Source: Bacteroidales bacterium (GTDB taxonomy: Bacteria; Bacteroidota; Bacteroidia; Bacteroidales; UBA932). From it: a stretch of DNA of 64,000 nucleotides. The DNA lies in NCBI GenBank assembly GCA_017938925.1, contig JAGBAO010000013.1:351037-415036 (forward strand). The letters run 5' to 3'. Below, piece by piece: positions 26,018-54,620 of the stretch (the first letter of the stretch is position 1; every line of letters begins with the position of its first letter). The notes under the pieces are model-generated. The model saw only the letters and a list, made by a program, of their open reading frames with translations. It was not told where the DNA came from and made no database searches. The translations under genes were made by a program, and so were the position numbers.

Positions 26018-26036
26018 TGTCAGATGCTTTTAAAGA

Positions 26037-28406: not shown

Positions 28407-28416
28407 AACGATATAA

Positions 28417-36047: not shown

Positions 36048-38576
36048 TTAATACGTTGATATCATGCCCCAGGTCTGAGGACCGCCCTCAATCGTGAGAT
36101 ATACTCCAACCTCCCTCTCCAGGCCTTCCATGCTGCCAGGACCTTTGAACGGTATGACGATTTCATGATCAGGGCTCTTGACCTTCTCATTCAGATCCAG
36201 ATGGCCAAGCCACTGAGGTCCGGACTTGAATTCCAGTTTAGTAAGTCTGACGTTGTGCCCGCGTGCATTGCTGATTCTGAGTCCTTTCATATCTGCAAAA
36301 TCCGCTGCAGGAATCGTAAAATACAGACGGTGCCCGGACTTCCCGGCGAAGTCCTGAGGACACCAGTAAGCAGCTTCATTCTCTGGTGAATACGGATTGA
36401 ACTCTCTGTCATCATAATCCACTGAGGAGTACTTCTTGACCAGTTCGCAGGCTGCTGCCAACGGATCCTGATATGGGCTTCCGGATGACAGCTTTCCACA
36501 ATGGAAACGTCCGTCGAACTCAACCATGTCCGCAACTTCGCCATCGACAGCCTTCCCGAAATAGTAGTCAAGCCTAGGCACATAATAGTCACGTATGAGT
36601 CCTGACCAGACGCGGGCCGAATAGTCTTTAAGGGAAGGGCCTGACCATACGGACACCAGACGTTTCAGTTCCTTTTCAAATGTTTCCTTCTCCTGCACGT
36701 TCGTAGCAGCTGCATCAGCCATGTCAAGCCATCTCTGAATTCTCAGTATCGGATGAGACTCAAGCAGACGGTCCATTTCCAGAAGCATCTCATGAAGCTG
36801 GTTCTTAAGCTGGACTGCCCTTTCCGTATCTCTGACCACAATGGCCCAATTGGCGGCCTTCAGCACATACACTGCCTTGGCAGCCATATAGAGCGCGGCA
36901 TATTGAATTGCATCCGTCACATAAAGTTCATTATCCTTGTAGTCATCGGCAACTGAGATGAATGCTTCTATACCTTTGAAATAATGCTCATTTATGTTCA
37001 TTGTCTCACATCTGTGATATGCCGGACGAAGCTGCCAGAGGAAACGGGCATTATTTGTAAAATTGCAATATGCAGACTGCCTCATTTCGTTCCAGAACAC
37101 TTCAAAGGCAGGGTCTTCCTTCCCGTAACGGGCCTTGCTGTATGACTTCAGGAAATCATCCAGATCGGTCTTTTGTGAGCTCCAGCCTGCCGCTGATATC
37201 AGTTCGTACAGGATTTCATTGTTCTCGACGCCCTCAGGAGAGGTTCCGAAACCGGTGAGACGGCCTTTATTCCCCGAAGACAGAGCCTCCAGATGTCCGT
37301 TGAGATAGAAATCGAGGGGCCCCTTCAGGGCGGTCCTGCCACCGAAATTAGGAGTTGTGCTCCATATCCAAGGCTTATTGTAGAATCCGCTCAGATTGTC
37401 CCAGCTGTTTCCATTCCTCCACACATAATGATTGAAGTCCACAGCAAGGTCTATCACCATCATACGATCATCTGGAGCACCACTCAGAAGAGCCTCAACG
37501 CTCTGAGGATCCCATATATCTCTCTGATATCCGAACATCCATCCCTGCATGACCCACACTGCATCCGGGTTGGCAGCAGCAAGTGACTCATATATGGTCC
37601 TGCTATAATGCTGAAGCCTGTCATGACGTTCCTGCGAGCCCTTTTCACCGAACGGGATATCCAGTTCGTTAAAGCTGTCGATAAGGTAATATTTCCCCTT
37701 TCCAAACTCCTTCTCCCACTCCCTGATGAATTCCGTGCCGATCACGCTGAACAGGGAATCCAGAGGCGACAACATATAGCTTTCGTGCCCGGACCATCGG
37801 GTGGTCATCATATCCACCTCAGGATAGTGCTCCTTCAAAGCCTTAGGGACGAAACCGGCAAATCCTTGATATACAGGCGTCATTCCCAGTGCGAGCATCC
37901 TGTCGTTGATCTTATGCTGGAGCTCTATCTGAGCATCGTGCCACTCCTGCGACATCCCGCCATCAACAGCTGTCATATTTCCCATACGCATCCACGGGAG
38001 GTGCGCCGGGCCTGTGAAATATGCGTCGATTTCCTCCTGGCTCAGACCCAGTCTCGACCACACTCTTGCAAGAATCGCCTCACCCGCAACCGGAGCCAAC
38101 GGCATGCTGAACCCGTGAAGGGCAATCCAGTCAATTTCCCTTTCCCATTCCTTCCATCCCCAGAACGGAGTGGTGTATCCGAACGTACATACATTATAGT
38201 AAAGCCTGTCCCGGAACGGAGAGGTGACGACCTTTCTTGGCTGAGGCTCAAGCTGTCGTGGGAAATCCAGACGGTTTCCGGTCCAGCTTGCCAAGCCATA
38301 ACCGTTTGAGACTATGTAGTCATAAAATCCCTTGGTCAATGCCACCACTGATGTTCCCTCGACTGTGAGGACATTCTCATCCACTGTTATGGCATATGTA
38401 TCAAGACTGTCAGTCTTGTCCAGGACCACAAATTCCACATTGCCCGGCACACTGCCGAATGTTCTGGATATGACCTTCTCGGCTTCCCTTACCGGAGCCG
38501 GCCTGCAGCCGCATGACAGGAGCAGGGCAAAAAGGCAGGTGGAAAAAGTGGTGGCGCTGAAATAAAATTTCTTCAT
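36048..38576 (-). CDS. GH89 alpha-N-acetylglucosaminidase, lipoprotein
   Basis: GH89 enzymes release terminal alpha-linked N-acetylglucosamine (as human NAGLU does from heparan sulfate, and clostridial enzymes from gastric mucin). I start at 38576 (MKKFYFSAT..), since the upstream 29 codons lack a signal and this start gives a lipobox (LLLSC, C22). An N-terminal small domain (EKVISRTFG to GFYDYI) precedes the barrel. Markers include YNVCTFGYTTPFWGWKEWEREIDW, YLIDSFNELDIPFG with a likely catalytic Glu, GWMFGYQ and GFGTSPEGVENNEILYEL with the second Glu. The C-terminal 150 or so residues form an extra beta-rich domain. It is the last gene of the second locus. Confidence 0.93.
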   Translation of the reverse strand: MKKFYFSATTFSTCLFALLLSCGCRPAPVREAEKVISRTFGSVPGNVEFVVLDKTDSLDTYAITVDENVLTVEGTSVVALTKGFYDYIVSNGYGLASWTGNRLDFPRQLEPQPRKVVTSPFRDRLYYNVCTFGYTTPFWGWKEWEREIDWIALHGFSMPLAPVAGEAILARVWSRLGLSQEEIDAYFTGPAHLPWMRMGNMTAVDGGMSQEWHDAQIELQHKINDRMLALGMTPVYQGFAGFVPKALKEHYPEVDMMTTRWSGHESYMLSPLDSLFSVIGTEFIREWEKEFGKGKYYLIDSFNELDIPFGEKGSQERHDRLQHYSRTIYESLAAANPDAVWVMQGWMFGYQRDIWDPQSVEALLSGAPDDRMMVIDLAVDFNHYVWRNGNSWDNLSGFYNKPWIWSTTPNFGGRTALKGPLDFYLNGHLEALSSGNKGRLTGFGTSPEGVENNEILYELISAAGWSSQKTDLDDFLKSYSKARYGKEDPAFEVFWNEMRQSAYCNFTNNARFLWQLRPAYHRCETMNINEHYFKGIEAFISVADDYKDNELYVTDAIQYAALYMAAKAVYVLKAANWAIVVRDTERAVQLKNQLHEMLLEMDRLLESHPILRIQRWLDMADAAATNVQEKETFEKELKRLVSVWSGPSLKDYSARVWSGLIRDYYVPRLDYYFGKAVDGEVADMVEFDGRFHCGKLSSGSPYQDPLAAACELVKKYSSVDYDDREFNPYSPENEAAYWCPQDFAGKSGHRLYFTIPAADFADMKGLRISNARGHNVRLTKLEFKSGPQWLGHLDLNEKVKSPDHEIVIPFKGPGSMEGLEREVGVYLTIEGGPQTWGMISTY

Positions 38577-38595
38577 AACTCTTAGAATCAAGATA

Positions 38596-41500
38596 TTACA
38601 ATTCAAGAATAGCCGTAATAGGATCATGATCGGAAAGATATGGGCACGGAACATCCGTATCAAAAATCACAAAGTTTCCCGTGCCTATATAGGTTCTTTC
38701 GTTTACTGTCCTGTATCGGTTGACTTCGAATCCGCAGCAGAAGATGTGATCTATGATCTTGTTTCCGGTACCGTCCCAGTTGGTATATGTGGCTTCATTA
38801 TCTGTCTGAGCCGCAACTTCCCTTGCATTGTCGAATCTTCCGATGAACGGATCGAAGACGAAGTTGTCCGACATGGTGTTGAAGTCACCTGAGATGACGA
38901 CAGGCAGTCCGTCTTTATTGATTTCATCCAATTTTCTCAGGATCATTCGGATGGAATTCTTTCTGGCTTCGAATCCTGAATTATCCAGGTGGGTATTGAG
39001 GAAAATGAATCTCTTTCCCGTCAGGTTCACACTGAACTCCGCCCAGGAGGCTATACGCACATACTTGGCGTCCCAGCCGACTTCTCCTACGGTCCCCTTT
39101 GGATTAAGCCAGAATGTTCCCTTGTTTTCTGACATTGTCACCTGGGATGCATCGTAGAAGATCGGGCACATCTCTCCACTGTCCACATCGGTACCTCCAG
39201 TCGCACGGCCGACTCCGTAAGAGCCATAGCCGAAGGCGGCTATTTCCGAGAACTGAACGGAGGTCGCCTCCTGCATTCCGATCACAGCCGGCTTTTCCGT
39301 TGAAAGCATCGACTTTATGGCATGACGGCGCACAGTCCAGTTTTTCGGATCAGTATCATTCCAGTTGATGTTGTCATCGGTCGAATTGCTGACGTTGAAG
39401 GACATGAATTTCAGCTCTGTCGTCGTCTCGTTGTATCTGCTGACACAGATATCGTCGATGAACCAACGTGAGAACAATGCATCGGACGGACTGCCGAAAC
39501 GGATTCTTGTGTCAGGACCGGCACCTTTGACCACCAGCCTGAAAGTCCTGAATCCGTCCGCAGGGAGTCCCTCGACAGTGACAGACTCCTTGCCGTCGAT
39601 CGTTCCCCCGTTCAGAACCGTTACAACAACTGACCTGACATCAGGATTGACGGCATCCAGCAATGTGTTCCTGTAGTCCGGCCTTCTGGCTGCAGCTGTA
39701 AGATACGCCATGGCCTTGAATTCCAGAAGCAATGTACCTTCTGCGTTCAATGCCGGAGTAGTCAGTGTTCCTGGATTGTTGACGAACTTGTCGATGGCCT
39801 GATAGGAATTCACCCAGCCGATCTGAGCATAGCCATGTCTCTGTCTGACATTGACGCAGTCCATGCCTTCATTCCCGGACAGTTCATCCCCGCAATAGTT
39901 CAGCATCGATGCGATTCTTTCACCCCAAAGGTAATCCGAGCCTCCAACAAGACCGTCGAACGGTTCGAAATATACGGCTTCCGAAGGAGACGCCGTCGTT
40001 CCCTGAGGCGTTTCCCATATGCACAGTGCCCCGCTGAATCCGGAGTTGGCATTCCAACCGTGAGTGGTCGCGGCAGTATCGGATGCCTTGCGCTTACCTG
40101 CTGGAACGAATTTAAGATATAAGGTCTCTCCAGAAAGGAAGCGGGAAGAAGGAGAAAGCGTGACTGTATAATGATGATGGTAATTTGGCTTGACCACATA
40201 CGAAGCAGCCAGTTCATAATCATCTCCATTTTTCGAAACATAGACATTCCAATCCGCTATGGCACCATTCGTTGCATACCATCCGAAGGACAGGTTGAAT
40301 GTCTGGGGAAGATCGGTCAGAAGCGGGACAGCAAACATATATCCTGTCTCTCCCGGATAATCTCCACTATATGTATTTGATACCGCGACTGATTCTTCCG
40401 TAACAAATGACTTGCAGACAAGGTAGTCGTTACCATCCTTGTTCGACCAATATTTATTGTCTGTATTGGTCATTTCCTCCTTCGTACTCGCGCAGCGTAC
40501 CAGCAATGATGCAGATACCTTATCGTCATAATAATATCTGTCACAGAACCTGGTGGAGCTGTCATAAGTATAATCTGCTGAAGTCAGGTACTTAAGAGAG
40601 TTTCCGGAGCCGGACTTGGCATAGAAGGAGAATATATACGGCAAGCCGGTAACTCCGCCGGTGGCATAGTTCTCTGCACTGATCTTTCCCATGCCGTAGA
40701 TGGTTCCCACCTTCAGTTCCACAGCTGATGTCGACTTACGTACATATGTCACCCCATCCACATCCGTCGCGGTCACGGTCAGTCCTGCCGAAAGAGTCTG
40801 CGGCATGACCACAAGATAATATCTGCCGGCCTCAAGACCGGAATCAAGCACAGCACCCGACGACTTTGAGAACCGGACCTCCGTATATGCAGATTTGTCT
40901 TCAAGGGATTTGTAGGTGGCATCCCACGAGGTCGTGGAGACGGCTCCGTCCTCGTTATATCTTATAAGGATGTCTCCGGCCAGCACTTCCTTGGAATTGC
41001 CCTTGACGGCAACCTTGACTATCCTTCCGTCCATTTCAGCCGGAATCTCAAATTCAAGCAGTGTCACGGCGTTTCTGAAAAGGACTGCCTTTGACAGATC
41101 GTCTGTCTTTGCCACAGCAAAGCCACGGCTTGCCTGATATGTTCCGACAGACGGAGTCTGATCGTCATCGATCCATGTCCTGACCTCCGATGTGGCGAGG
41201 CTGGCAATGAAATTGGTGTTCCATGGATATACAAGAAGATAGTTTCCCTCTGCAGATGGAGCCTCATATTCCTTGATGTTCTCCGGATCTTTACTATAAT
41301 AATTATACGAAAATCTGGAAGTACGCCCATATGTGGCTGCCTTGAACCTGTAGGCCAGGGTCCACCCTGCTTCCTTCAACTTGTCAGCCACGGAATAGTC
41401 TGAACGTTCTATCTGACTTCCGTCAAACAAGCCCACATTGTCTCCGGAAAGCCAGTCCACAGAGTAGTCTGACCTGAGGACTGTCTTCGTTCCAGGGTGG

Positions 41501-41619
41501 CCGTACTCCTCCCTTGTGGCCTCGAACAGATAAGTATCCGCAACGGTTTCAAGGATTTCCTTCTCAGCACAGGACAATAACATCGATGCTGAGATCAGGT
41601 ATAGTGACCATCTTTTCAT
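38596..41619 (-). CDS. Fimbrillin-like surface lipoprotein fused to an EEP (DNase I-like) domain
   Basis: The 1007-aa protein has a lipobox (MLLSC, C17). Residues 40-320 have a fimbrillin-like pattern (VDWLSGDNVGLFDG, AVTLLEFEIPAEMDGRIVKVAVKGN, GRYYLVVMPQ, VGTIYGMGKIS). The middle (about 320-735) contains FN3-like and jelly-roll-like beta modules (YFEPFDGLVG, RWFIDDICVSR). From about residue 736 comes an endonuclease/exonuclease/phosphatase domain with all core residues: FMSFNVS, GMQEA, LNTHLDNSG, VISGDFNTMSDN and LSDHDPI. EEP enzymes cut phosphodiesters (DNA, phospholipids, phosphoinositides); the substrate here is unknown. It lies 2 nt after another EEP gene. Confidence 0.82.
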   Translation of the reverse strand: MKRWSLYLISASMLLSCAEKEILETVADTYLFEATREEYGHPGTKTVLRSDYSVDWLSGDNVGLFDGSQIERSDYSVADKLKEAGWTLAYRFKAATYGRTSRFSYNYYSKDPENIKEYEAPSAEGNYLLVYPWNTNFIASLATSEVRTWIDDDQTPSVGTYQASRGFAVAKTDDLSKAVLFRNAVTLLEFEIPAEMDGRIVKVAVKGNSKEVLAGDILIRYNEDGAVSTTSWDATYKSLEDKSAYTEVRFSKSSGAVLDSGLEAGRYYLVVMPQTLSAGLTVTATDVDGVTYVRKSTSAVELKVGTIYGMGKISAENYATGGVTGLPYIFSFYAKSGSGNSLKYLTSADYTYDSSTRFCDRYYYDDKVSASLLVRCASTKEEMTNTDNKYWSNKDGNDYLVCKSFVTEESVAVSNTYSGDYPGETGYMFAVPLLTDLPQTFNLSFGWYATNGAIADWNVYVSKNGDDYELAASYVVKPNYHHHYTVTLSPSSRFLSGETLYLKFVPAGKRKASDTAATTHGWNANSGFSGALCIWETPQGTTASPSEAVYFEPFDGLVGGSDYLWGERIASMLNYCGDELSGNEGMDCVNVRQRHGYAQIGWVNSYQAIDKFVNNPGTLTTPALNAEGTLLLEFKAMAYLTAAARRPDYRNTLLDAVNPDVRSVVVTVLNGGTIDGKESVTVEGLPADGFRTFRLVVKGAGPDTRIRFGSPSDALFSRWFIDDICVSRYNETTTELKFMSFNVSNSTDDNINWNDTDPKNWTVRRHAIKSMLSTEKPAVIGMQEATSVQFSEIAAFGYGSYGVGRATGGTDVDSGEMCPIFYDASQVTMSENKGTFWLNPKGTVGEVGWDAKYVRIASWAEFSVNLTGKRFIFLNTHLDNSGFEARKNSIRMILRKLDEINKDGLPVVISGDFNTMSDNFVFDPFIGRFDNAREVAAQTDNEATYTNWDGTGNKIIDHIFCCGFEVNRYRTVNERTYIGTGNFVIFDTDVPCPYLSDHDPITAILEL

Positions 41620-41621
41620 AT

Positions 41622-42482
41622 TCAGAATTTCAGAATCGTATAAATAGGATAATGATCGGATATATAAGGAATATTCTTATATGTCTTGTCGATGACCCTG
41701 AACTGAGGGCAGGAGGAAAAGACGGTATAGTAGATATAATCCAGAATCTTGTCTCTGCCGTTTCCCCATCCGTTGTAGGAATTCTTCGTATCGGAATCCT
41801 CCGCAACATTTCTGGCACTGTCCATTTCCTTGTCCAGTTCGAGCAGACAAGGATTATCAGGAAGCATATTGAAGTCTCCCATGAGTATGAGCGGAAGATT
41901 CTCCGGATTCATGGCCGCTATCCTCTCCCTGACAAGGGCAAGGCCGTTCCTCTGAGCCTGCTGTCCCCTGTGATCCAGATGGGTGTTGACAATGAAGAAT
42001 TCTTTTCCGGAAGGTATATGCCTCATCTTTGCCCAAGTTGCTGTACGAGGATATGAAGCATCCCATCCTTTGGAAGGAATATCTGGAGTTTCCGAAAGCC
42101 AATAGGTCCCCCAGTCAAGAAGCTTTATTGTCTGCCTGTTGAACATTATGGCTGCATGTTCACCCTTGTTCCTGCCGTCGTCACGGCCGACACCAATCCT
42201 GCGGTACTTGGGAAAGGCCGCTTCCATATCATAAAGCTGATGAGGACGGGCCTCCTGCATTCCGCACACATCGGGTGCGATCTCCTTGAACATCGCATAT
42301 GAAGCCTCCTGACGGTAGCACCAGCTGTTGTCACCGTCAGAGAACTTGCCGTCTATGTCGGAGCGTATGTTGTAGCACAACACCTTCAGCTCGTCATCTG
42401 CCACTTTTGTCCTTGGCTCCTCCGCCAGCAAGGCTGCCGGAAGGAGCAGGACACCCGTAATCAAGGTAAATATTCTGTTCAT
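41622..42482 (-). CDS. Secreted endonuclease/exonuclease/phosphatase (EEP) family protein
   Basis: The 286-aa protein has a signal peptide (to about LLAEE, residues 18-22) and one EEP domain. Catalytic motifs are complete: LCYNIRSD, GMQEARPHQL, VNTHLDHRGQQA, ILMGDFNMLPDNP and ISDHYPI. Homologues occur in many Bacteroidota glycan loci without a proven role. The start overlaps the preceding stop by 4 nt (ATGA), so it is translationally coupled to the triple-module lipoprotein. It is similar to, but clearly different from, the EEP domain of the next gene, so this locus has two phosphodiesterase-like domains. Confidence 0.88.
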   Translation of the reverse strand: MNRIFTLITGVLLLPAALLAEEPRTKVADDELKVLCYNIRSDIDGKFSDGDNSWCYRQEASYAMFKEIAPDVCGMQEARPHQLYDMEAAFPKYRRIGVGRDDGRNKGEHAAIMFNRQTIKLLDWGTYWLSETPDIPSKGWDASYPRTATWAKMRHIPSGKEFFIVNTHLDHRGQQAQRNGLALVRERIAAMNPENLPLILMGDFNMLPDNPCLLELDKEMDSARNVAEDSDTKNSYNGWGNGRDKILDYIYYTVFSSCPQFRVIDKTYKNIPYISDHYPIYTILKF

Positions 42483-45400
42483 TGTATATCTGAAATTTCC
42501 AATATAGTTATGACGATCTCATCAATATACATTCTGTACTGACTTGAGCCCTTTCCTTTACCTGTTGTATCGAAGTCAGGACCTATCACGATTCTTGATG
42601 CGGCATCCGCCTCGAGTTCCACAGAGTATTGTTTCAGGTCTGGCGAAGAAATGTCCATCTTCATCTTGACATCATTGCGTCTATCAGGTACAAACACATG
42701 GTTTTCCCCCATAGTACCCTTCATGGCTGAAACCAGCACATTCTCTGCCTCATCTGCATCATATCTGGCTCCAAGGAACTCCACCTTCAGTCTTGCCTTC
42801 TTGCCTTCCGGTATGCATGAAAGTTCAGGGGTGACTATCTGAGGAGCATAAGAATATCCTCCCAGTTTCAGATATCCCACACGGGAGATCAAGGACTTCT
42901 GCGCATTGACCGCATCCGACGGTATCCTCATGCCCCATCCGGACAGACGGCTGTCTCCGACTGCGCCGCCCAGACCACCATCAGCATAGAACAACGGACA
43001 TTCGTCGCTGCTGTTTCCATACGTTCCGGAACTGCTGCAATCCCCGGAAGGAGAATTGAATCCGGACAGGTCTGAACTTCTCCAGCCTGCAGCTGTATTC
43101 AAGGCATCACCATTCCAGCACAGCATCGAGAAGTCCTCTGCCAGGATTACTGTTCCGACTCCTGCAGATGAGACATTGCCCGGTTCCACGACAGTGAAGG
43201 AATCAGTCGTAGCCGCCACCGTCCTGATGATATTGCCGGTTTCCGGATTGGTCGCATGGAAATAATAGGTTGTATTCTGTTCAAGTCCTCCGAATGTGAA
43301 GGCTGGACCAGATGATGGCCATATTGCTGATCCGGCCGGCACAGAGTGGCTGACAACAAGGTCTGTCAGGGCTTCGTCACGGTAAAGTGCGAATGTATAT
43401 CCATAATCCTTAGGCGCATTACCCTCTCCGAACTTGAATGTCAGTGTGGATGAAGATGCTGCCGTGTGCGAAGCATCCACTTTCCATATATCCTTGATTA
43501 TATCCACAACTGTCACCTTGACATCATCCAGGAACATTCTATGCTGTGATTTGCCACTTCCTTTACCAGAAGTCTCGAAATCAGGTCCGATGAGGATTCT
43601 CGCTCCCCGACGCACATTTTCGAACTCAAATGAATATGGACTCCAGCCTGCTGCTCCGGAAAGTTCAAATCTGACATCCTCCCGCGAAGTCACGGCAAAA
43701 GCATTGTCAGTCGATGTTCCTCCGACAGCGGACACGATCGAAGCAACCGGATCGCTGCCATAGCGTGAAGCCATGAAATCCACCCTTACCTTTGCAATAT
43801 AGTCCTCAGGCACCTGAAGTTCAGAGGTCACGATATTGGCGCACCAGGATCCGCCGCCAAGCTTGAGATGACCTGACTTCGCATATACGCGTCCCGCGTT
43901 GTCTTTACCCTGCCTCAATATGCTCCAGTCGGCCAGACGGCTGAGCAGGGAGGCATCCTTGAGAGTTCCTCCATAGAGCTGGTCCTCACTGTCCCTATTC
44001 TTGTATGTTCCTGACGGACAGTCTCCGGAAGGAGACACATATTCCGAAACATCCGAACTGATCCAGCCCACAGCGTTATGAAGGTAGTCGCCATGCCATG
44101 GAAGCACTGAGAAATCCTCTGCAAGGATTACTGTTCCTGGCTCCACCTGACCAACCGCCGTATTCACAAGAGTGAAGTCGGTCGTCGAGGCCTTCAGAGG
44201 AGTGTCCAAGGACTTGCCCGTCGTAGTGTTAGTCACAGAGAACCAGTATTCCGTGTTCCTTTCAAGACCGGCAAAGACGAAGGTCGGAGCATTTTTGTCA
44301 TACCACAATGTCGATCCTGCAGGAATGGAATGTCTGACAACAAGATCTGTCATGGCCTCATCCCTGTAAAGTCCGAACGAATATCCGTATGAACGCTTCT
44401 GCTCGTCGTCAATTCCTTCTCCGAACCTGAATATCAGAGTGGATGATGACGAGGCAATATGCTCTGCCTCCACCTTCATTCCATTGTCGTTCACTTCAAG
44501 GACTGTCACAACCACGTCGTCCAGGAACATTCGATGCTGGCTCTTGCCGTTGCCTGTCCCCGACTTTTCGAAATCGGGACCGATCAGGATGCGGGTATCA
44601 GGCTGTACCTTAGTAAGCTCGACAGAATACGGGTTCCAACCAGCCACCGGATTAAGGTCAAATCTCTTGCAGCTCAATGTATCTGTAAGTGCAAAGACAT
44701 TGTTCTCTTCGGAACCTTCCACAGCTGCCACAACCATGGCCTGGCTGTCAGACGAATAGCGCGAAGCGCGGAAGTCCACCTTGACCTTGGCCACCATGCC
44801 GGCCGGTATATCCGACAGTGCCGGAGTGACAAGATCGGAAGCATAGCTGTAGCCTCCCATCTTCAGATATCCAACCCTTGCAAACACCATCTTCTGACGG
44901 TTGTCTGCAGCACCTTTCTGCGGATAGGCACTCCATCCGGCAAGGCGGCTCTCCTGCACTGCCACACCGAAGCCGGTAGTGTCGAACAGCTGGCACTCAA
45001 AACCCTTGTTGCCGAAGCCGCCTTCCGGTCTTGTTCCTGAAGGAGCCACAAAAGATTCCACATTCCTGCTTCTGAAGCCGGCCGCCGCATTGAGTTCGTC
45101 ACCGTTCCAAGGTATCTCCGAGAAATCCTCCGCAAGAATTACACTTCCTGCTGCGACCGATCCGCTTCCCGTCTGCACGGGGGTGAAGGCGGTTGTGGAT
45201 AGCGACACCACATCGCTCGACTTGCATACTGCCAGGAAGGTCGAATCTGTCAGCGGAGTGACAGAAGATGTGTCCGAGACATGAAAATAATATCTTGTTC
45301 CGCTTTCAAGTCCTCCGAAAGTGAAGGCAGGAACCGCCTTGTTCCATATCGAGGAGCCTGCCGCCACATAATGACAGACTACGGTGTCAGTGAGAGCCTC

Positions 45401-45877
45401 GTCACGGAAGAGTCCGAAGATGTATGGACGGGCAATCATCTCCGCCGCTGTCTCACCTTCTCCAAAACGGAATGTAAGCGTCGATGAAGTACTGTCCACT
45501 TTTTCGACAAAAATCTCCGGTTCCCTGGTGAGGTCACCCTTCTGCACGACTTTCAGCTCCACCTTGCGGGTCTCCATGGTCAGGATGACCTTTCCTTCCC
45601 TGGTATCACCCTCATTATGTCCGAAGACGAGAGTCAGGCTGTCTGCTGATGTAACGAATTCGCTTTTTCCTGGGAACTCAGCCACACTCAGCCAGTCGGA
45701 CTCGACAGTACCTTCGTATTCTCCGTTCGTATATATCTTGAAGCCAAGAGACGCTGCTTCCGGTCCGGCCTCCTGAGTGCTTTCCGGACACCCAAGTTCG
45801 TACACGGTCACATGTTCGACCTCCTGGACGCATGCCGTCAGGATGACGGCTGCCAATATTGCATATAATCTGCGCAT
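42479..45877 (-). CDS. Lipoprotein with three tandem FN3/jelly-roll modules
   Basis: I do not recognise a named function. Start at 45877 gives MRRLYAILAAVILTACVQ with a lipobox (LTAC, C16); an in-frame GTG at 45886 is less likely because it overlaps the SusD stop. A BACON-like domain comes first (about residues 30-120, SDWLSVAEFPGKSEF, KVELKVVQKG). Then one 330-345-aa module occurs three times. Each begins with an FN3-like part (SSTLTFRFGEG, YRDEALTDLVV) and continues into a jelly-roll part (VILAEDFS, PSGDC, GYLKLGGYSY, RILIGPDFETSGKG, HRMFLDDV). It probably binds glycan in the SusE/F position. It follows SusD by 5 nt. Confidence 0.85.
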   Translation of the reverse strand: MRRLYAILAAVILTACVQEVEHVTVYELGCPESTQEAGPEAASLGFKIYTNGEYEGTVESDWLSVAEFPGKSEFVTSADSLTLVFGHNEGDTREGKVILTMETRKVELKVVQKGDLTREPEIFVEKVDSTSSTLTFRFGEGETAAEMIARPYIFGLFRDEALTDTVVCHYVAAGSSIWNKAVPAFTFGGLESGTRYYFHVSDTSSVTPLTDSTFLAVCKSSDVVSLSTTAFTPVQTGSGSVAAGSVILAEDFSEIPWNGDELNAAAGFRSRNVESFVAPSGTRPEGGFGNKGFECQLFDTTGFGVAVQESRLAGWSAYPQKGAADNRQKMVFARVGYLKMGGYSYASDLVTPALSDIPAGMVAKVKVDFRASRYSSDSQAMVVAAVEGSEENNVFALTDTLSCKRFDLNPVAGWNPYSVELTKVQPDTRILIGPDFEKSGTGNGKSQHRMFLDDVVVTVLEVNDNGMKVEAEHIASSSSTLIFRFGEGIDDEQKRSYGYSFGLYRDEAMTDLVVRHSIPAGSTLWYDKNAPTFVFAGLERNTEYWFSVTNTTTGKSLDTPLKASTTDFTLVNTAVGQVEPGTVILAEDFSVLPWHGDYLHNAVGWISSDVSEYVSPSGDCPSGTYKNRDSEDQLYGGTLKDASLLSRLADWSILRQGKDNAGRVYAKSGHLKLGGGSWCANIVTSELQVPEDYIAKVRVDFMASRYGSDPVASIVSAVGGTSTDNAFAVTSREDVRFELSGAAGWSPYSFEFENVRRGARILIGPDFETSGKGSGKSQHRMFLDDVKVTVVDIIKDIWKVDASHTAASSSTLTFKFGEGNAPKDYGYTFALYRDEALTDLVVSHSVPAGSAIWPSSGPAFTFGGLEQNTTYYFHATNPETGNIIRTVAATTDSFTVVEPGNVSSAGVGTVILAEDFSMLCWNGDALNTAAGWRSSDLSGFNSPSGDCSSSGTYGNSSDECPLFYADGGLGGAVGDSRLSGWGMRIPSDAVNAQKSLISRVGYLKLGGYSYAPQIVTPELSCIPEGKKARLKVEFLGARYDADEAENVLVSAMKGTMGENHVFVPDRRNDVKMKMDISSPDLKQYSVELEADAASRIVIGPDFDTTGKGKGSSQYRMYIDEIVITILEISDIQ
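42480..45510 (-). repeat. Three tandem protein modules of about 1 kb each
   Basis: Module boundaries are near 45510, 44475, 43485 and 42480. Shared strings include SSTL.F.FGEG, SGKGSGKSQHRMFLDDV and LAEDFS. Similarity is clear at protein level and partial at DNA level, so the duplication is not very recent. Confidence 0.8.
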
Positions 45878-45882
45878 ATATA

Positions 45883-47562
45883 TCACTCCATGTAATCGTT
45901 ATTGTTCAAAGCGCCATCGGAATAAGCCACCTGATCGGAAGGAACAGGATAATACTTGTGGTATGGCTTTATGTACAAAGGAAGATAGTAGCTGTTGTTG
46001 TATTGCAGCGTCCTTTCATACCATATTCCCCAGCGCACCAGATCGAACTTCCTCTGGAACTCTCCGAAAAGTTCGACGGCACACTCCTTTCTGATTTCCT
46101 CCATGATCAGGTCCGCATCATATGAAAAGGTGATAGGCTGCACAGGATCCAGTCCCGCCCTCACCTTGGTGATGCTCAGATATCTGCATGCCTCCTCAAG
46201 ATCACCGGTCATCAGCAGGGCTTCCGCCTTGTTAAGAAGGGCTCCGGCGAAACGGAACACCTTCTGATTGTTCGAATCACGGTTATAGTACATCGTCGGG
46301 CACCAGAACTTGTTGCCGAGCCATGGCCTGCTGCTGTATGATGTGCAACTGTTGAAGAACATGACGGTATCCCTTTCCTGATCAAGGTCCGACTCCGCCG
46401 AATATCCCTTCCAGCGCCATGCAAGATTACCGGATCCTCCACGAGGGACATCAGACTCCGTATATTCTCCAGCTCTGAGGTCCTTATTCCTTTCCTTCAT
46501 CAGAGTGCCATGGAAATATTTTGTCGGCCTTGCAGCCTTGTAGGTGCGGGCGTATGCACTCATCTCCGGTATGATTATGCCGTTGTAATTGTTCGAGACC
46601 ACAGACGCACTTTCATCTGTCTCATCATCATCCTCCTCAATTTCGATATTCGAGCGCGACGGAGTGCAGTAGCTTGCTATGGAAGAGTATTCCTGCTGAC
46701 CGAACTCCTCCACCTTGTTGGATATCTCGAATATGCTCTCAGGAGTCCATTTGTTTGAGAACGGAATGTCTGTCAGCGGATAGGTCTGTCCGAATTCCGA
46801 CGGGGCGTCAGCAAAATGGCCGTATATGTCTTCAAGGACCTCACAGGCGGTAATGGCATCTTCCCAGCGCTCGTTCCACATGCAGAACTTGACAGCCAGC
46901 ATGAGACCCAGGGACGCTCCTGCCCGATAATCCGTACCGCTTGCATAACTCCTGACAAGCGGCATATACTGCTTTCCGCCGCGGTCATAAGGAAGCAGGA
47001 TATCCAGCAGCTCGTTTGCAAGCGTATCCCTGATGATGGCTGCCGGAGTCCTTTCAAGATGAGCTATATCCTTCCTGTTGTCCTCAGTGACGGCCTCAAG
47101 ATAGAAAGGCACATCGCCGAAGACGGAAGTCAGGACGTAGTAATACATCGCGCGCATCACCGTGGCCTCTCCGTAGAGGACGGCATATTCATCTTCAGTG
47201 ATCTTTCCTTCCTCCAGGGTGCGGTTTATCACATTGCACAGTTCGTTCGTGCGCATGACGCCCAGATAGCCCTGTTTCCAGACTGTCTTTCCGTGGCATG
47301 GCTTGGCCGGAGAAATCACACAGTTGGCGTCAGGACGTGTGTAGGAGGACAGGAACATGACATCCGTAGCACACTCGGTCATCTGCAGCATGGCGGCAGA
47401 ATATATGGACCTCACCGGGTCATAGCAGCCGTTGAGACCGGTTACAATCCGCTCCGGACTGGTATAATAGTCGGAAGTCGCATAAGTCGTGTTCTTCTCA
47501 TCCAGAAACGAACATGAGGCGAGAAGTAACGGGAACAATATGTATAATATTCTCTTTTTCAT
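45883..47562 (-). CDS. SusD/RagB family outer-membrane lipoprotein (second locus)
   Basis: The 559-aa protein has a lipobox (LLASC, C16) and the family opening (SFLDEKNTTYATSDYYTSPERIVTGLNGCYD). Helical TPR-like stretches follow (YGEATVMRAMYYYVLTSVFGDVPFY, FAGALLNKAEALLMTGDLEEACRYL) and the late IRKECAVELFGEFQRKFDLVRWG. It should work with the SusC encoded 1 nt upstream as a lidded importer. A very acidic loop (EIEEDDDETDE) may bind calcium. The natural ligand cannot be read from sequence; neighbours suggest an N-acetylglucosamine-bearing glycan. Confidence 0.94.
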   Translation of the reverse strand: MKKRILYILFPLLLASCSFLDEKNTTYATSDYYTSPERIVTGLNGCYDPVRSIYSAAMLQMTECATDVMFLSSYTRPDANCVISPAKPCHGKTVWKQGYLGVMRTNELCNVINRTLEEGKITEDEYAVLYGEATVMRAMYYYVLTSVFGDVPFYLEAVTEDNRKDIAHLERTPAAIIRDTLANELLDILLPYDRGGKQYMPLVRSYASGTDYRAGASLGLMLAVKFCMWNERWEDAITACEVLEDIYGHFADAPSEFGQTYPLTDIPFSNKWTPESIFEISNKVEEFGQQEYSSIASYCTPSRSNIEIEEDDDETDESASVVSNNYNGIIIPEMSAYARTYKAARPTKYFHGTLMKERNKDLRAGEYTESDVPRGGSGNLAWRWKGYSAESDLDQERDTVMFFNSCTSYSSRPWLGNKFWCPTMYYNRDSNNQKVFRFAGALLNKAEALLMTGDLEEACRYLSITKVRAGLDPVQPITFSYDADLIMEEIRKECAVELFGEFQRKFDLVRWGIWYERTLQYNNSYYLPLYIKPYHKYYPVPSDQVAYSDGALNNNDYME

Positions 47563-47563
47563 A

Positions 47564-50500
47564 CTAAAATACCATTGAAATCTTTCCTATTACAGTGCGC
47601 GGACGCGGGAACGAGCCATTGTCCAGGCGATAGACTGCAGAGGACGTGTTGACATCAGGGTCAAAGCCGTTGTAGTTCTTCAGCAGCCAGAGATTATCTC
47701 CGGAGACGCCCACAATCAAGGACTTGATATATTTCATAGCCTGCTTTGGAAGAGGTATGTTGTACTCTATCGAAACCGTCTTCAGACGCAGATAAGAGGC
47801 GTCGTGAATGAATCGCGAACAGCCATAAAGGTCTTCACGATATGGAGCAGGGATGTCGGAGTCCGGATTGTCCGGAGTCCAGGCATCAAGCATATACCTG
47901 TACTTGTTGTAGGATGAAGAACCGGTTCCGAGCCAAAGCTCAGAAAGGTTGTACATCTTTCCTCCCAGCGAGTAGGCGAAATACACACCCAGCGTGAGTC
48001 GCTTGGCAATTGTGAAATCGTTTGAGATACCTCCATACACTATCGGATCAGAACAGCCCAGATATACGACATCCTCCTCATCGAGAAGTCCGTCATGGTT
48101 CACATCCACATATTTCGAGCGTCCGAGATTGCTTTCCACGCTTGTGGACATATATCCGGAAGTATAGGCATGGGTGCTGTTGTTGCGCTCAATCTCTTCC
48201 GCACTTTTCCACACACCTTCATACTGATAGCCCCAGAGCGCATTCACAGGATATCCTCTGCGATATCCGTAGAGATACTGGCCGCTGTTGCGAGGATTGA
48301 GATATGTCGGCACCACTGCATCCCCCTCGCCTATGTCCAGGGTCATCTGCCTGTTATGCGACACGGTAACAGCCGTGCTCCACTTGAAGTTCCTCCTGAC
48401 AAAATTCTTGGTCTTTACAGTCACTTCCACACCGATGTTTCGTGTGGAGCCGACGTTATTGAAATATGTTTCATATCCGGTGACCTGAGAATTCCTCATT
48501 GCGAGCAGAAGGTCATGTGTATATGAAAGATATCCGTCGGCCTCGATAGAAAGACGGCTTCTGAAGGCTTCGAAATTCAGGCCGACATTGTATGAATCCG
48601 TGGTCTCCCAGGTGAGATTGCTGTTCGCAAGCTTGTTGGGAGTGTATGCCACGGACCTGCTGTCTCCGAATGTCCAGTGAGTCTTTGCAGTGGAAAGAGT
48701 GGCAAGGGACATGTAGTTGGATATCGCATCGTTTCCGGAACGTCCCGCACTCAGCCTGAGCGAAAGGTCATTAAGCCAGTAGGCATTGTTGAACCACGAT
48801 TCATTGACGATTGACCACCTGAATGCAAGGGCCGGGAAATAGCCCCACTTCCTGTTCACCGCGAAGTTTGAAGCGGCATCGGTACGCATGGTCGCAGTGA
48901 GGTAATATCTTCTGTTCCATGAGTAATTCACCCTTCCGAAGAATGACATCTTGCTGTTTATGGTCTGGCTGCTCTTCGGCACAAGATTGCCGTAATCGAC
49001 TATGGCGTTCATATTGCCGTATCCGACATTATCGTCGAGATAGCCTGCTCCTGTCAGATTCTCACTGTCTATCTTCTTGTATTCCAATGACATTCCGAGC
49101 ATGGCCTCTATGGAGCTCTTCTTTATCTTGGTGCTGTAGTTCAGGGTGTTCTCATTCACGAAGGTCTGCTTCAGATAGGCTCCACGCGCAGCTGTACCTC
49201 CAAGATTGTTGTATGCAGCAGTCGGAAGGAATGAAGGAGAATAGCTGAAATTCCATGTATTGTTGCGCGCGTAGGAGAACTTGACATTGAGTTTAAGCCC
49301 CTTCACGATGTCAGCCTTGAGCCACGGAGCAAGAACTATCGTGTTGCGTCTGAGCCACTTTGTAGAATTCATCGCTGTAATGTACGGATTGTTGAATATG
49401 GCACCTCCGCTGCTTTCATCGTCTCCGTACAGGTTCCAGTCGTCCTTGACTGTAAGAAGAGGACTCAGGTATATGGCGGCACTTGAGCTGGTACCGGAAA
49501 TCTGTGCAGAGGTGAAGTCCGTGCGCGTATTGGTCAGCGATGAGCGTATTCCCGCCTGCATCCACGGCTTGAGCTTGACACTGTAGGAAATCACCGTGCT
49601 GATCTTCCTGTTTCCGGAACCGATGATGACTCCCTGCTCGTCGTTATATCCGAGAGAGGCCGAATAATTGGACTTTCCGGAGTTTCCGTTCAGGGAAACA
49701 TGGTAGTCCTGATAGACAGCATTACGGCTGAGGGTCTTGACCCAGTCGGTTCCGGTTCCCATGGCAGCGGGATCTGCATAAGGAGGATTCACGGCATCCT
49801 CAGACCAGAACTCGCGGGCATAATAGACCATGTTCCTCCACTGGGCAATCTCGCTTGCATCCATTATGTCGATGCTGTTCGCTATGGAAGACACGCCGGC
49901 CTTCGCGTTGAACTTTATCCTGAAGGAGCCCACCTGCTTCTCCTTGTCCTGGGAGGAAGCGGCTGTCGTCACCAGGATCACACCGTTTGCTCCGCGGGAA
50001 CCGTAGATTGCGGTGGAAGACACATCCTTGAGAATGGAGATTGAAACGATGTCGGAAGGGTTGATCTCAGAAAGGTCTTCCACAACATCCATCATTCCGT
50101 CCACGATTATCAGAGGTTCGTTTCCGGCAGAAATGGAGCGTGCCCCGCGAATCTGGATAGTGCCCGCCTCGCCTGGCGCTCCGGTCTGGGAAGAGAACTC
50201 GGCTCCGGCAATGCGACCTTGAAGTGCCTGGGCTACATTGGATGCAGCTGATGACTGCATGTCGTCCATGGATACCACTGAGACACTTCCGGTGAGGTCA
50301 CCTTTCTTGGATGTTCCGTATCCGATCACCACCACATCGTCGAGGGTGCTGGTCTTGGGAGACAGACGGACCTCAAGTTCCTTTCCTCCGGATTTCACCT
50401 GCTCGATCTTCGTGTCATAACCGATATAGGAGAACTCCAGAAAAGTATCTTCTGCAACATTGATGGAAAACCTTCCGTCAATGTCTGTCACAGTGCCGTT

Positions 50501-50659
50501 GGAAACATTGTTCTTGTCGATAACCCCGGCCCCGATCAGAGGCTCGCCGTTCTCGTCCAAAACCTTTCCGGTCACTGCCCTGTTCTGCGCAATGAGCGCC
50601 CCGCCACACAGCAGCAGGACACTCATCGTCGCAATCAATTTCCTGATTACAGATATCAT
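47564..50659 (-). CDS. SusC/RagA family TonB-dependent transporter (second locus)
   Basis: The 1031-aa outer-membrane transporter has a signal peptide (GGALIAQ), a carboxypeptidase-regulatory-like domain (GKVLDENGEPLIGAGVIDKN), the pre-plug SusC motif (LDDVVVIGYGTSKKGDLTGSV), a plug with EPLIIVDGMMDV and AIYGSRGANGVILVTT, and a beta-barrel ending IGKISMVF. It has no STN extension. An internal Met at residue 12 is an alternative start. It is clearly different in sequence from the pectin SusC. The upstream lipoprotein gene ends 12 nt before it, so the importer is the third gene of its operon, an unusual position since SusC generally leads. Confidence 0.95.
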   Translation of the reverse strand: MISVIRKLIATMSVLLLCGGALIAQNRAVTGKVLDENGEPLIGAGVIDKNNVSNGTVTDIDGRFSINVAEDTFLEFSYIGYDTKIEQVKSGGKELEVRLSPKTSTLDDVVVIGYGTSKKGDLTGSVSVVSMDDMQSSAASNVAQALQGRIAGAEFSSQTGAPGEAGTIQIRGARSISAGNEPLIIVDGMMDVVEDLSEINPSDIVSISILKDVSSTAIYGSRGANGVILVTTAASSQDKEKQVGSFRIKFNAKAGVSSIANSIDIMDASEIAQWRNMVYYAREFWSEDAVNPPYADPAAMGTGTDWVKTLSRNAVYQDYHVSLNGNSGKSNYSASLGYNDEQGVIIGSGNRKISTVISYSVKLKPWMQAGIRSSLTNTRTDFTSAQISGTSSSAAIYLSPLLTVKDDWNLYGDDESSGGAIFNNPYITAMNSTKWLRRNTIVLAPWLKADIVKGLKLNVKFSYARNNTWNFSYSPSFLPTAAYNNLGGTAARGAYLKQTFVNENTLNYSTKIKKSSIEAMLGMSLEYKKIDSENLTGAGYLDDNVGYGNMNAIVDYGNLVPKSSQTINSKMSFFGRVNYSWNRRYYLTATMRTDAASNFAVNRKWGYFPALAFRWSIVNESWFNNAYWLNDLSLRLSAGRSGNDAISNYMSLATLSTAKTHWTFGDSRSVAYTPNKLANSNLTWETTDSYNVGLNFEAFRSRLSIEADGYLSYTHDLLLAMRNSQVTGYETYFNNVGSTRNIGVEVTVKTKNFVRRNFKWSTAVTVSHNRQMTLDIGEGDAVVPTYLNPRNSGQYLYGYRRGYPVNALWGYQYEGVWKSAEEIERNNSTHAYTSGYMSTSVESNLGRSKYVDVNHDGLLDEEDVVYLGCSDPIVYGGISNDFTIAKRLTLGVYFAYSLGGKMYNLSELWLGTGSSSYNKYRYMLDAWTPDNPDSDIPAPYREDLYGCSRFIHDASYLRLKTVSIEYNIPLPKQAMKYIKSLIVGVSGDNLWLLKNYNGFDPDVNTSSAVYRLDNGSFPRPRTVIGKISMVF

Positions 50660-50671
50660 AGTTACGGATTA

Positions 50672-52657
50672 TTACTCAGCAACCGGTGTAAGAGCTTTGA
50701 CGGTTACTGTCACGTCGTTGATATAATGTACGGCTTTGCCGTTGGTGTATTTACCTGCAACAGGAGTTATATTGAGTCTGTCACCTTTTTCTACACCGTC
50801 TATCGTGAAAGTATATTTCTCCCACTTACCATAATTTGTCAACTGCTGAGAATCAGAAGTCCCGTTAATGGTAACATTATCCATATGCAGATCATCCTGA
50901 CGTGTGCCCGTCATACTCGACACAGCCATATGCAATTCGTTTTGTCTGTCATCTGCTCTGCGAGCCATAGTGACCTTGACTTCCAATGTTGCTGTGCTGC
51001 GATCAGGTATTGCAGTCAATTCAGGAGTTACAATGGATGTCGTATATGATCCTGAACCCAACTTAAAGTACCCACAGTGACCAAACATATATGTGGTGCC
51101 ATTATTCCTATAATACGCCCAGTCCTTCAGACGTGACGTAGCAGCCAATGCTGAACGGAATGTCTCATTTTTCGTAGAACCATTGGCATCACTGCTGAAT
51201 GCCCTATACACCAGATTGGCATCTACAGCTTCACATTCTCCTGTCATTGCCTCCATTGCAGATTTCTTAGTAGCACCGGCTGCCCCAGCTACGGTCTCAG
51301 CTCCTCCTACGATTTCTGCAAAATCTTCAGCAAGGATCACTTCTCCGACTTTCGCCTCAGAAGCAGGGACTGTCACATTTTCAAATGTAGTGGTAGTACA
51401 AGTCACTACATTGCTTATCAGATTATTGTTAATATCTGTCACCTTGAACTTATATGCTGTATTCTGTGCAAGACCTCCGAACACCCACTTAGGCTGCATA
51501 TCTTTCCACAGATCACTGACTTTACTATAATCATAATAATCATGCGGCACAAGATATGAAACCACCAGATTATCATCAGCATCATACAGATAGAGTTTGT
51601 AATCTCTTGCGACATCATCCTTCACACTTGTCCCGCAGGTCCATGTGAACGAAGCTGTAGATGATGTCGTTTCACATGCTGTTGCAGTCAGATGGGCATA
51701 GGCATCACTGATCGCACCCATATAATGAATGGTGTTCCTCTTGAATTCATATTCTCCGACCTTTGACCTCGTGTATATCTGGCCGTCAGTCATAGTCACA
51801 GTCACATTGACTTCTGAAACTTTGGTCGGAAGCACCGCAATATAATAATCTCCCTGCTCCATTCCATCTGCATCACTAAGCGTCACACTATATCTTGCAC
51901 TTGTGTTTCCATACTTCGCATGCCAAGCCTGAAGTACAGGTTCAGCAGAAGAGAAATCAACAAAGACATCACCGGCAATATGTTCCGTGCCATTTCCTGA
52001 TACGGCAATGGAAGCCACCTTTCCGGCGAACTCCTCCGGCACAGTGAATTTCAGAAGAGAAACGAGATTCTTGAAAGAAACATTCTCTTCAAGGCTGCTG
52101 GCCTTTGCAATTGCAGATCCGCGGTTCTTGTCGAAACTATTCTTTGTCGCCGTCTGACTCGGAGAGATATAAAATCTTGCAAAAGACTTCTCAACATTGC
52201 AATAGTATGTCTCCGAATAAGTGTAAAGCATGATATACTTGCCGGCAGCAGGATTGAACGAATCTTCGGATGCTCCCTTTTTGTCATCGGCTGTAATGGT
52301 AAAATCTGCTGTCAGGCCGGCCCCCTCGGTAGCAAATTTATATCCCTTATACCAGTTTCCCTCATCTGTAGGCAGATTGCTTCCAGTAACTATATTATTC
52401 TCATCGGATGCCTCAAAAACTATCACGGCATCTCCGCTCTTCCAATGCACCATACGGCCGTCAGTATCATCCGTATCGTTCGGATCCAGCTGAGACTTGG
52501 ATGATGGGGTGATATCACCGACATTCTCCCTGACAGCAGTGAACGAGAACTGTCCGAATTCGATCGCCTCATTCTCCTGCTGAGGATTTTCTTCCTTGAC
52601 ACATGAAACAGCAGCGGCAAGTGCAAGAATCAAAAGAATTGATTTAGTTGTCTTCAT
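50672..52657 (-). CDS. Fimbrillin-like surface lipoprotein with FN3 and jelly-roll module
   Basis: The 661-aa protein has a lipobox (AAVSC, C19). Residues 30-325 follow the fimbrillin-like pattern (VHWKSGDAVIVFEA, LVSLLKFTVPEEFAGKVASIAVSGNG, GDYYIAVLPTKV, RNTIHYMGAI). After this comes one copy of the FN3/jelly-roll module also found three times at 42480-45510 (SSTASFTWTCG, VGEVILAEDFAE, GYFKLGSGSY, TSIVTPELTAIP). It may be a surface adhesin or glycan-binding protein. A strong ribosome site (AGGAGGAAA, 52670-52662) lies before the ATG and overlaps the stop of the small upstream peptide. The gene looks more AT-rich than its neighbours by eye. Confidence 0.82.
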   Translation of the reverse strand: MKTTKSILLILALAAAVSCVKEENPQQENEAIEFGQFSFTAVRENVGDITPSSKSQLDPNDTDDTDGRMVHWKSGDAVIVFEASDENNIVTGSNLPTDEGNWYKGYKFATEGAGLTADFTITADDKKGASEDSFNPAAGKYIMLYTYSETYYCNVEKSFARFYISPSQTATKNSFDKNRGSAIAKASSLEENVSFKNLVSLLKFTVPEEFAGKVASIAVSGNGTEHIAGDVFVDFSSAEPVLQAWHAKYGNTSARYSVTLSDADGMEQGDYYIAVLPTKVSEVNVTVTMTDGQIYTRSKVGEYEFKRNTIHYMGAISDAYAHLTATACETTSSTASFTWTCGTSVKDDVARDYKLYLYDADDNLVVSYLVPHDYYDYSKVSDLWKDMQPKWVFGGLAQNTAYKFKVTDINNNLISNVVTCTTTTFENVTVPASEAKVGEVILAEDFAEIVGGAETVAGAAGATKKSAMEAMTGECEAVDANLVYRAFSSDANGSTKNETFRSALAATSRLKDWAYYRNNGTTYMFGHCGYFKLGSGSYTTSIVTPELTAIPDRSTATLEVKVTMARRADDRQNELHMAVSSMTGTRQDDLHMDNVTINGTSDSQQLTNYGKWEKYTFTIDGVEKGDRLNITPVAGKYTNGKAVHYINDVTVTVKALTPVAE

Positions 52658-52668
52658 AGTATTTCCTC

Positions 52669-52824
52669 CTATTCCCAGCTGAATTCCAGATAATTATACT
52701 GCTCAGTCTGCTGAGCACTGAAACAGATGACTCCTTCCGGAACCATTTCAAGGGTTCGAATCTGCGGAGCAGCGTACTCCACTGATTTCACGGATTTACT
52801 CCGATTAAAGTTTAAAGTGTACAT
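52669..52824 (-). CDS. 51-residue leader-type peptide at the head of the second locus
   Basis: A small frame (ATG at 52824, TAG at 52671-52669) encodes MYTLNFNRSKSVKSVEYAAP and then QIRTLEMVPEGVICFSAQQ, ending LEFSWE. Short Bacteroidota peptides with a Y.AP....LE....EG..C.S pattern are known to me as unassigned hypothetical proteins near surface lipoprotein genes, and this fits. It has no signal peptide. Its stop overlaps the ribosome site of the next gene, so the two are probably translationally coupled. It lies 52 nt after a promoter box. It is shorter than usual ORF cut-offs and easily missed. Function is unknown. Confidence 0.7.
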   Translation of the reverse strand: MYTLNFNRSKSVKSVEYAAPQIRTLEMVPEGVICFSAQQTEQYNYLEFSWE

Positions 52825-54615: not shown

Positions 54616-54620
54616 AGAGG

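Follow-up and report, generated by a model that had tools for sequence, protein, structure and literature searches.

Gene content and layout of the locus

The locus described here lies in a 64,000-nucleotide stretch of DNA from a Bacteroidales bacterium (contig JAGBAO010000013.1 of assembly GCA_017938925.1; hereafter the window) and brings together the transport pair SusC and SusD (SusCD), an alpha-N-acetylglucosaminidase of family GH89 and two hydrolases of the EEP fold. Seven minus-strand genes form a compact run, coding in this order for a lipoprotein of 661 amino acids (aa), SusC, SusD, an 1135-aa lipoprotein, the stand-alone EEP protein EEP1, a 1007-aa lipoprotein and GH89 (Table 1). Family models confirmed the SusCD pair, the single glycosidase within the seven genes and the two EEP domains, all of which had been proposed in a first-pass annotation. 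The genome that contains the window is fragmented (2.67 Mb in 34 contigs, ~92% complete).

Table 1. Genes of the locus, with their positions in the window and the supporting matches (E-values)
Feature	Position	Strand	Evidence
SusR-like regulator with DUF6377; probable operon regulator	53026..54624	-	PF19904 2.6e-43, above cut-off
Possible small leader gene, 51-codon open reading frame	52669..52824	-	translation only
661-aa lipoprotein, probable surface glycan-binding protein	50672..52657	-	fn3 0.00046, below cut-off
SusC-type TonB-dependent transporter	47564..50659	-	TIGR04056 3.3e-224
SusD-type lipoprotein	45883..47562	-	PF07980 7.4e-23; alignment; tree
1135-aa triple-repeat lipoprotein, probable surface glycan-binding protein	42479..45886	-	BACON 5.4e-05, slightly below cut-off
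EEP1, stand-alone EEP-fold hydrolase (286 aa)	41622..42482	-	PF03372 5.6e-10
1007-aa lipoprotein with C-terminal EEP domain	38596..41619	-	PF03372 5.4e-12, residues 739-998
GH89 alpha-N-acetylglucosaminidase with C-terminal extension	36048..38576	-	NAGLU 4.4e-118

The spacing of the seven genes is that of one operon. Gaps of 12 and 1 nucleotides (nt) separate the 661-aa lipoprotein gene from SusC and SusC from SusD; SusD and the 1135-aa gene overlap by 4 nt, or are 5 nt apart with the ATG at 45877 as the start. The 1135-aa gene and EEP1 overlap by 4 nt, EEP1 and the 1007-aa gene are separated by 2 nt, and the gap to GH89 is 19 nt if this gene starts at the ATG at 38576. The 51-codon open reading frame (ORF) precedes the first lipoprotein gene by 11 nt, and its ATG, at 52824, is where the first-pass annotation had ended the locus. 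The SusR-like gene ends 201 nt from this ORF and may form a separate transcription unit. Its product matches the NCBIfam model SusR_regulator at 4.5e-80, with 270 bits where the cut-off is 480. Relatives of the DUF6377 regulator occur in 14 plasmid records, none reaching 60% identity. Signal sequences and lipoprotein cysteines were judged by eye; on this basis EEP1 looks like a soluble secreted protein, and, SusC aside, the remaining operon proteins appear to be lipoproteins.

The large lipoproteins are composed of related parts. In the 661-aa protein, an N-terminal domain shared with the 1007-aa protein (32% identity over the first ~320 aa) is followed by an FN3 domain and one putative jelly-roll-type repeat. 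Besides a BACON-like domain, the 1135-aa protein contains three repeats (44489-45502, 43499-44455 and 42494-43459) with pairwise identities of 46-48%, in agreement with the triple-module lipoprotein described earlier. The C-terminal part of the 661-aa lipoprotein resembles these repeats, at 27-33% identity (E 9e-28 to 1.5e-29). A profile of the repeat unit produced ten weak matches in the PDB (E 0.028 to 0.75), mostly to FN3 proteins, and the designation of its second half as a jelly roll is our own tentative reading. The label of fimbrillin-like surface proteins, given in the first-pass annotation, found no family support: no window protein matched the fimbrillin models in Pfam, and the profile of the shared N-terminal domain matched no fimbrillin in the PDB.

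EEP domains and the GH89 enzyme

Both EEP domains, that of EEP1 and the C-terminal one of the 1007-aa protein (~38599-39417), retain in an alignment read by eye all of the blocks N.R or N.S, QE, NTHLD, GDFN, D.I and SDH, which we take to be those expected of an active EEP fold. They match the same four solved EEP structures, among them 4c1r, deposited as a mannosyl-6-phosphatase and presumably a part of the yeast mannan system of Bacteroides thetaiotaomicron. EEP1 matches 4c1r at 6.8e-41 and 3mpr at 4.6e-41, and the fusion domain matches 3g6s at 1.7e-28 and 4c1r at 6.5e-25. The GVGRDDG..KGEH.AI block of 4c1r is kept in EEP1, and the fusion domain has an altered GVGRDDG block.

EEPs similar to exodeoxyribonuclease III (xth-like) are found among distant relatives of the locus. 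Of 89 EEP domains taken from the window and loci related to it, not one exceeded 25 bits with EEP1 and also with an xth-like query; with the latter, the window EEPs gave no score, and some EEPs of the wider SusD clade fit neither query. Matches of these distant xth-like EEPs to NCBIfam xth models fall below the cut-offs, and two of the EEPs, compared with solved structures, gave no match at E 0.001. Judged by these comparisons, the window EEPs belong to the 4c1r kind rather than the xth-like one, and another EEP of the same genome (locus L026) is likewise of the 4c1r kind.

EEP1, whose N-terminus resembles a signal peptide, is likely a periplasmic sugar phosphatase or phosphodiesterase. In the 1007-aa protein, an N-terminal, a middle and a putative jelly-roll-type domain precede the EEP domain, the middle part occurring also in L026 and L039; this lipoprotein is likely a surface phosphoesterase. 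Plasmid relatives of EEP1 were found in 27 records, all below 60% identity, and in one Parabacteroides distasonis record from the plasmid search the EEP adjoins rpoC. On the Bacteroides fragilis plasmid NZ_CP043609.1 (L131:6962-12873), a three-gene SusC-SusD-EEP segment lies between two toprim-domain genes, with no annotated glycosidase adjoining.

The GH89 protein possesses all three NAGLU domains, followed by a C-terminal extension (~residues 716-871 in the numbering of the ORF opening at TTG 38663) that is also found in L031 and L032, and partly in L033. It is more similar to the human-type NAGLU 4xwh (3.2e-98, 333 bits) than to CpGH89 (2vc9, 213 bits). In the alignment with 4xwh, its motifs SFNELD and SPEGVENNE stand opposite TFNEMQ and APEGISQNE, so that the contexts of the active-site Glu residues, which we assume to be the two catalytic positions of GH89/NAGLU proteins, are kept. 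In an alignment stretch of low confidence with 2vc9, the window GH89 is 8 residues shorter in the Trp loop of CpGH89 and has Met at the position of the Trp (chain position 660 of 2vc9, which we take to be Trp685). This extra Trp-containing loop has been tied to recognition of GlcNAc-alpha1,4-Gal (GlcNAc, N-acetylglucosamine) by CpGH89 (PMC8225759, in the part available). Because the loop seems to be absent, a mucin target of the GlcNAc-alpha1,4-Gal type becomes less probable, while heparosan-like or other alpha-GlcNAc targets are retained as candidates.

Related loci in other genomes

The enzyme set had been described as fitting no standard locus. This proved too strong a statement, because GH89, EEP and SusCD recur together in several Bacteroidales and SusCD loci with phosphodiesterases have been published as a class, with nucleic acids as the proposed target (PMC6499787) and lipid headgroups and organic phosphate as further proposals (PMC6499787, PMC8115612; both available in part). 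Loci with SusCD or SusD that contain GH89 and two or more EEPs are L036, L037, L139, L144, L159 and L170, and L038 has one EEP. GH89, EEPs and SusD belong to a single gene run in all of these except L159, where GH89 adjoins two EEPs near SusCD. In L144, a 952-aa protein fuses the two enzymes (Exo_endo_phos at 28-244, NAGLU domains at 264-921; Pfam). Among 201 genomes in another family, at least three, from two genera, encode such EEP-GH89 fusions (G306, which supplied the query, G705 and G642); the count is a lower bound, as at most four candidates per genome were scored. A further SusCD locus (L142:4015-11990, G041:C11) carries NAGPA, GH89, a GDPD-DUF4855 fusion and GH20 consecutively. The next GH89 relative after the orthologue (G107/L032, 59-61% identity) belongs to the arrangement SusC-SusD-BACON-GH89-GH31-[Metallophos + GDPD], a combination of genes that would match a polymer of glycosylated glycerophosphate. 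Some GH89 loci have no phosphoesterases, for instance L035 with its GH123 genes. Among the open-licence papers listed in literature searches, no title or abstract opening described a GH89-EEP locus, and the words phosphatase, endonuclease and phosphodiesterase are absent from the available part of PMC11992087.

GntP-family permease genes stand beside the GH89-EEP genes of L038 (931-2193) and L144 (9998-11251), in genomes of different families, a hint that an organic acid may be part of the substrates of those loci.

The window SusC is 71, 52, 45 and 43% identical to four relatives. In the orthologous locus L047, from the same-genus genome G041, a SusR homologue (42%) immediately before SusC (71%) is followed by SusD (66%), the triple lipoprotein (42%) and EEP1 (65%), and then, as far as the contig reaches, by a 927-aa lipoprotein that matches nothing in Pfam and a calcineurin-like phosphoesterase. 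Gene order is kept from SusR to EEP1 in L047 and in L051 (JAMPAT010000038.1), which was treated as a copy of it, but GH89 lies elsewhere in G041. Counterparts of the triple lipoprotein are present in L047/L051 and in L052 (isolate RUG13253, 9.3 kb), where SusC-SusD is flanked on both sides by FN3/jelly-roll-type lipoproteins. The SusD tree places L047 and L052 as sisters of the window SusD (100/100).

Neighbours in the clade of 27 SusDs to which the window belongs include NAGPA, S1/P1 nuclease, FAD oxidoreductase, BNR, GDSL esterase and GH2, among others. Two sibling SusCD loci in the window's genome (G000) are accompanied by a NAGPA phosphodiester glycosidase and an S1/P1 nuclease (L048) and by two EEPs and GH3 (L049). 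More distant SusD relatives, e.g. in Sphingobacterium and Dysgonomonas, form SusC-SusD-EEP-DUF5689-DUF5689-EEP loci; in the window proteins, DUF5689 gave no hit up to E 0.1. Over the whole SusD clade, EEPs were counted in 55/83 loci compared to 2/30 control SusD loci, the 83 being non-independent members of a single clade from which L051 was excluded and near-copies (L053/L054/L102, L090/L091, L096/L097 and L050/L121) were kept.

Several other observations concern neighbouring or similar arrangements. NAGPA and/or S1/P1 nuclease accompany SusCD pairs similar to the window's in L048 (301-19552, G000:C7), L059, L060, L062 and L069, some of which also have the FAD oxidoreductase, and these loci are a further candidate group for phosphodiester-linked glycans. 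The stretches G000:C5 ~274000-291500 (L026) and G000:C13 ~13700-31000 (L030) are apparently the same, with identical scores for the genes compared (EEP, SusD and lipoproteins), which looks like a duplicated or mis-binned assembly piece; they hold an ECF/FecR-SusC-SusD-DUF5689-EEP locus and two large lipoproteins. In L079 (15899-20037), a protein with two EEP stretches adjoins one with GH28 and histidine phosphatase domains (Pfam). On its other side, the GH89 gene of the window is flanked by a GH28 protein (34338-35948; Pfam). This gene belongs to an apparently separate pectin-type cluster (15340-35948) in which pectate lyase-like and pectin esterase-like proteins, a hybrid two-component regulator and a second SusCD were recognized by eye.

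Possible substrates and comparison with known systems

We consider the chances about even that the operon serves SusCD-based uptake of a glycan or glycoconjugate combining phosphate or phosphodiester links with alpha-linked GlcNAc. The first-pass annotation had suggested such a glycan, possibly a teichoic-acid-like or capsule polymer from other bacteria. Its general part is strengthened because the EEPs resemble a deposited sugar phosphatase more closely than exodeoxyribonuclease III-like EEPs, because SusCD and GH89 relatives adjoin other phosphoesterases, and because EEP-GH89 fusions exist; the identity of the polymer and its origin in other bacteria gained no such support. In the proposed sequence of steps, the two FN3/jelly-roll lipoproteins would capture the polymer at the cell surface, phosphodiesters would be cut or trimmed by the 1007-aa surface lipoprotein through its C-terminal EEP domain, and SusC-SusD would take the fragments inside. 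Periplasmic EEP1 would then strip phosphate from the sugar, a role suggested by the designation of its nearest named relative, and GH89 would liberate alpha-GlcNAc.

Association of GH89 with phosphoesterases was also evaluated by counting gene neighbourhoods. The sample consisted of 44 loci out of 72 places from an order search (393 genomes) and 7 from a family search, the window being excluded; a family was scored as present wherever it occurred in the retrieved stretch, and the genes counted did not in every case share an operon, with our own profiles from few seeds instead of curated Pfam models and with simple ORF calling, and selected proteins were confirmed with Pfam. GH20 loci were a poor control because just 2/40 of them contain SusD (own profile) versus 16/44 GH89 loci, and 30 SusD loci were therefore added; these were SusD hits with high scores in 12 genomes, and four of the loci came from the genome of the window itself. 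EEPs were present in 7/22 SusD-bearing GH89 loci against 2/30 of these controls (p 0.027), and any of five phosphoesterase profiles in 10/22 against 4/30 (p 0.013); of GH89 loci without SusD, 2/29 had an EEP. The effect is modest in numbers, and the EEP-GH89 fusion is the stronger argument.

A number of results weigh against a phosphate-containing alpha-GlcNAc glycan as the target. The statistics are weak, as the compared loci are related to each other and not independent. When only loci of at least 14 kb are considered, the counts become 7/21 versus 2/24 for EEPs (p 0.061) and 10/21 versus 4/24 for any phosphoesterase (p 0.051), and against GH20 loci the EEP count is 7/44 versus 1/40 (p 0.060). 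In other loci, the EEPs adjoining GH89 give poor scores with the window EEPs and higher ones among themselves. In the clade of the window SusD, 24/27 members have no EEP nearby, the exceptions being the window, L047 and L074, and in the window's genome EEPs lie within 10 kb of 6/36 SusD places, the window's included (contig C13 was left out of this count as a copy of C5). The GH89 orthologue of G041 (L031, 67-72% identity) is unlinked to SusCD and stands on contig C8 beside a different SusR-like gene. Finally, nucleic acids and lipids are also substrates of EEP folds.

Polymers with both alpha-GlcNAc and phosphate include wall teichoic acids decorated with alpha-GlcNAc and, alternatively, fungal phosphomannan with alpha-GlcNAc caps. 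A teichoic-acid-like polymer is one option for the target. Feeding on Gram-positive cell-wall glycopolymers of, for example, the Clostridioides difficile lipoteichoic acid type has a slim chance of being the function of the locus. The repeat of that polymer, [-6)-alpha-D-GlcpNAc-(1-3)-[-P-6]-alpha-D-GlcpNAc-(1-2)-D-GroA], includes 6-P-6 phosphodiesters and glyceric acid (PMC10642750, in its accessible part). In this case phosphodiester cleavage would fall to the surface EEP and import of the fragment to SusCD, EEP1 would strip the sugar 6-phosphate and GH89 would free alpha-GlcNAc. The GntP-type permeases of L038 and L144 could import glycerate, but the window operon has no permease of this type. 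Recurrent pairing of GH89 with EEPs, including fused proteins, offers a concrete enzyme pair for phosphate-linked glycans, and if the target were a teichoic-type polymer, Bacteroidales would graze on the walls of their Gram-positive neighbours.

A host or fungal glycan is an unlikely alternative, in which GH89 would act on heparosan/heparan, mucin-type alpha-GlcNAc or alpha-GlcNAc-capped fungal mannan. The EEPs would then be sugar phosphatases that remove occasional phosphates, such as mannose-6-phosphate of phosphomannan or of lysosomal-type N-glycans, with no phosphodiester backbone involved. The mannosyl-6-phosphatase 4c1r as closest named relative of EEP1 is consistent with this, as is a P. 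distasonis locus (L133) in which an EEP1 relative (34%) lies near SusCD, alkaline phosphatase, sulfatases and a GH76 gene. Three clustered GH92 genes in the window's genome point in the same direction, but they are on another contig (C23), and among the seven genes Pfam detected no mannosidase, lyase, fucosidase or sulfatase. In its closeness to 4xwh and its lack of the extra loop, GH89 resembles the heparosan-active Bt3590 (PMC8225759, partial text), and the shorter loop argues against GlcNAc-alpha1,4-Gal mucin.

Scavenging of nucleic acids or of phosphodiesters in general, with SusCD importing oligonucleotides or organic phosphate and the EEPs acting as nucleases or phosphatases in the manner of the Flavobacterium phosphate utilisation (Pus) systems, seems improbable to us. 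The richness of the wider SusD clade in EEPs, many of them xth-like and beside DUF5689 proteins, favours it, and residues 579-750 of the 1007-aa protein weakly resemble a surface DNase family (T9SS_DNase_Rie, 3.8e-09, 36 bits where the cut-off is 260). In Pus loci, transporters resembling SusCD are combined with phosphatases and phosphodiesterases (PMC8115612, available in part). In Riemerella, natural transformation has been reported to require a set of proteins that includes one with DUF5689/DUF5017 (PMC8459023, available in part), a report that bears more on the DUF5689 branch of the SusD clade than on the window. A purely nucleolytic role was ranked lower because the window EEPs are not xth-like. 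The window moreover lacks DUF5689, its upstream regulator is SusR-like, and scavenging leaves no role for GH89, whose pairing with phosphoesterases recurs.

Equally doubtful is the notion that GH89 is a passenger placed by rearrangement at the end of an operon that has a target of its own and extends from the first lipoprotein to the EEP fusion. In its favour, the operon core (C31, with a phosphoesterase as its last visible gene) and the GH89 orthologue (C8) of G041 are on separate contigs; the 19-nt gap before GH89, if the ATG at 38576 is the start, and the GH89-EEP clusters and fusions elsewhere argue against it.

Compared to known systems, the locus appears to be a variant of the SusCD polysaccharide utilisation locus. 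As in such loci, SusC and SusD are adjacent and accompanied by lipoproteins, hydrolases including a carbohydrate-active enzyme (GH89) and a SusR-like gene; it differs in having a single glycosidase, the other hydrolases found being the two EEP-fold proteins. With the Flavobacterium Pus loci (PMC8115612, available part) it shares a SusCD-like transporter combined with phosphodiesterases or phosphatases, but these contain PF00149, PF16670 and PhoA1, and phosphate depletion induces them, whereas in the window the operon includes GH89 and the upstream regulator is SusR-like. EEP1 and the 4c1r EEP are closely related, but the window operon has no mannan enzymes, and its second EEP is part of a large lipoprotein. 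Unlike the yeast mannan locus, the seven genes include neither GH76 nor GH92; in the genome GH92 occurs only on C23, and GH76 was not searched genome-wide. With human NAGLU, CpGH89 and Bt3590 (PMC8225759, partial text), the window GH89 has the catalytic domain and the active-site Glu contexts in common, differing by its C-terminal extension and gene neighbours. The closest parallels in enzyme content are the GH89-EEP loci L036, L037, L038, L139, L144, L159 and L170, in which SusCD or SusD, EEPs and GH89 are clustered as in the window; L036-L038 differ from it in their SusD clade, the EEPs beside GH89 are of another subtype, and GntP permeases accompany L038 and L144.

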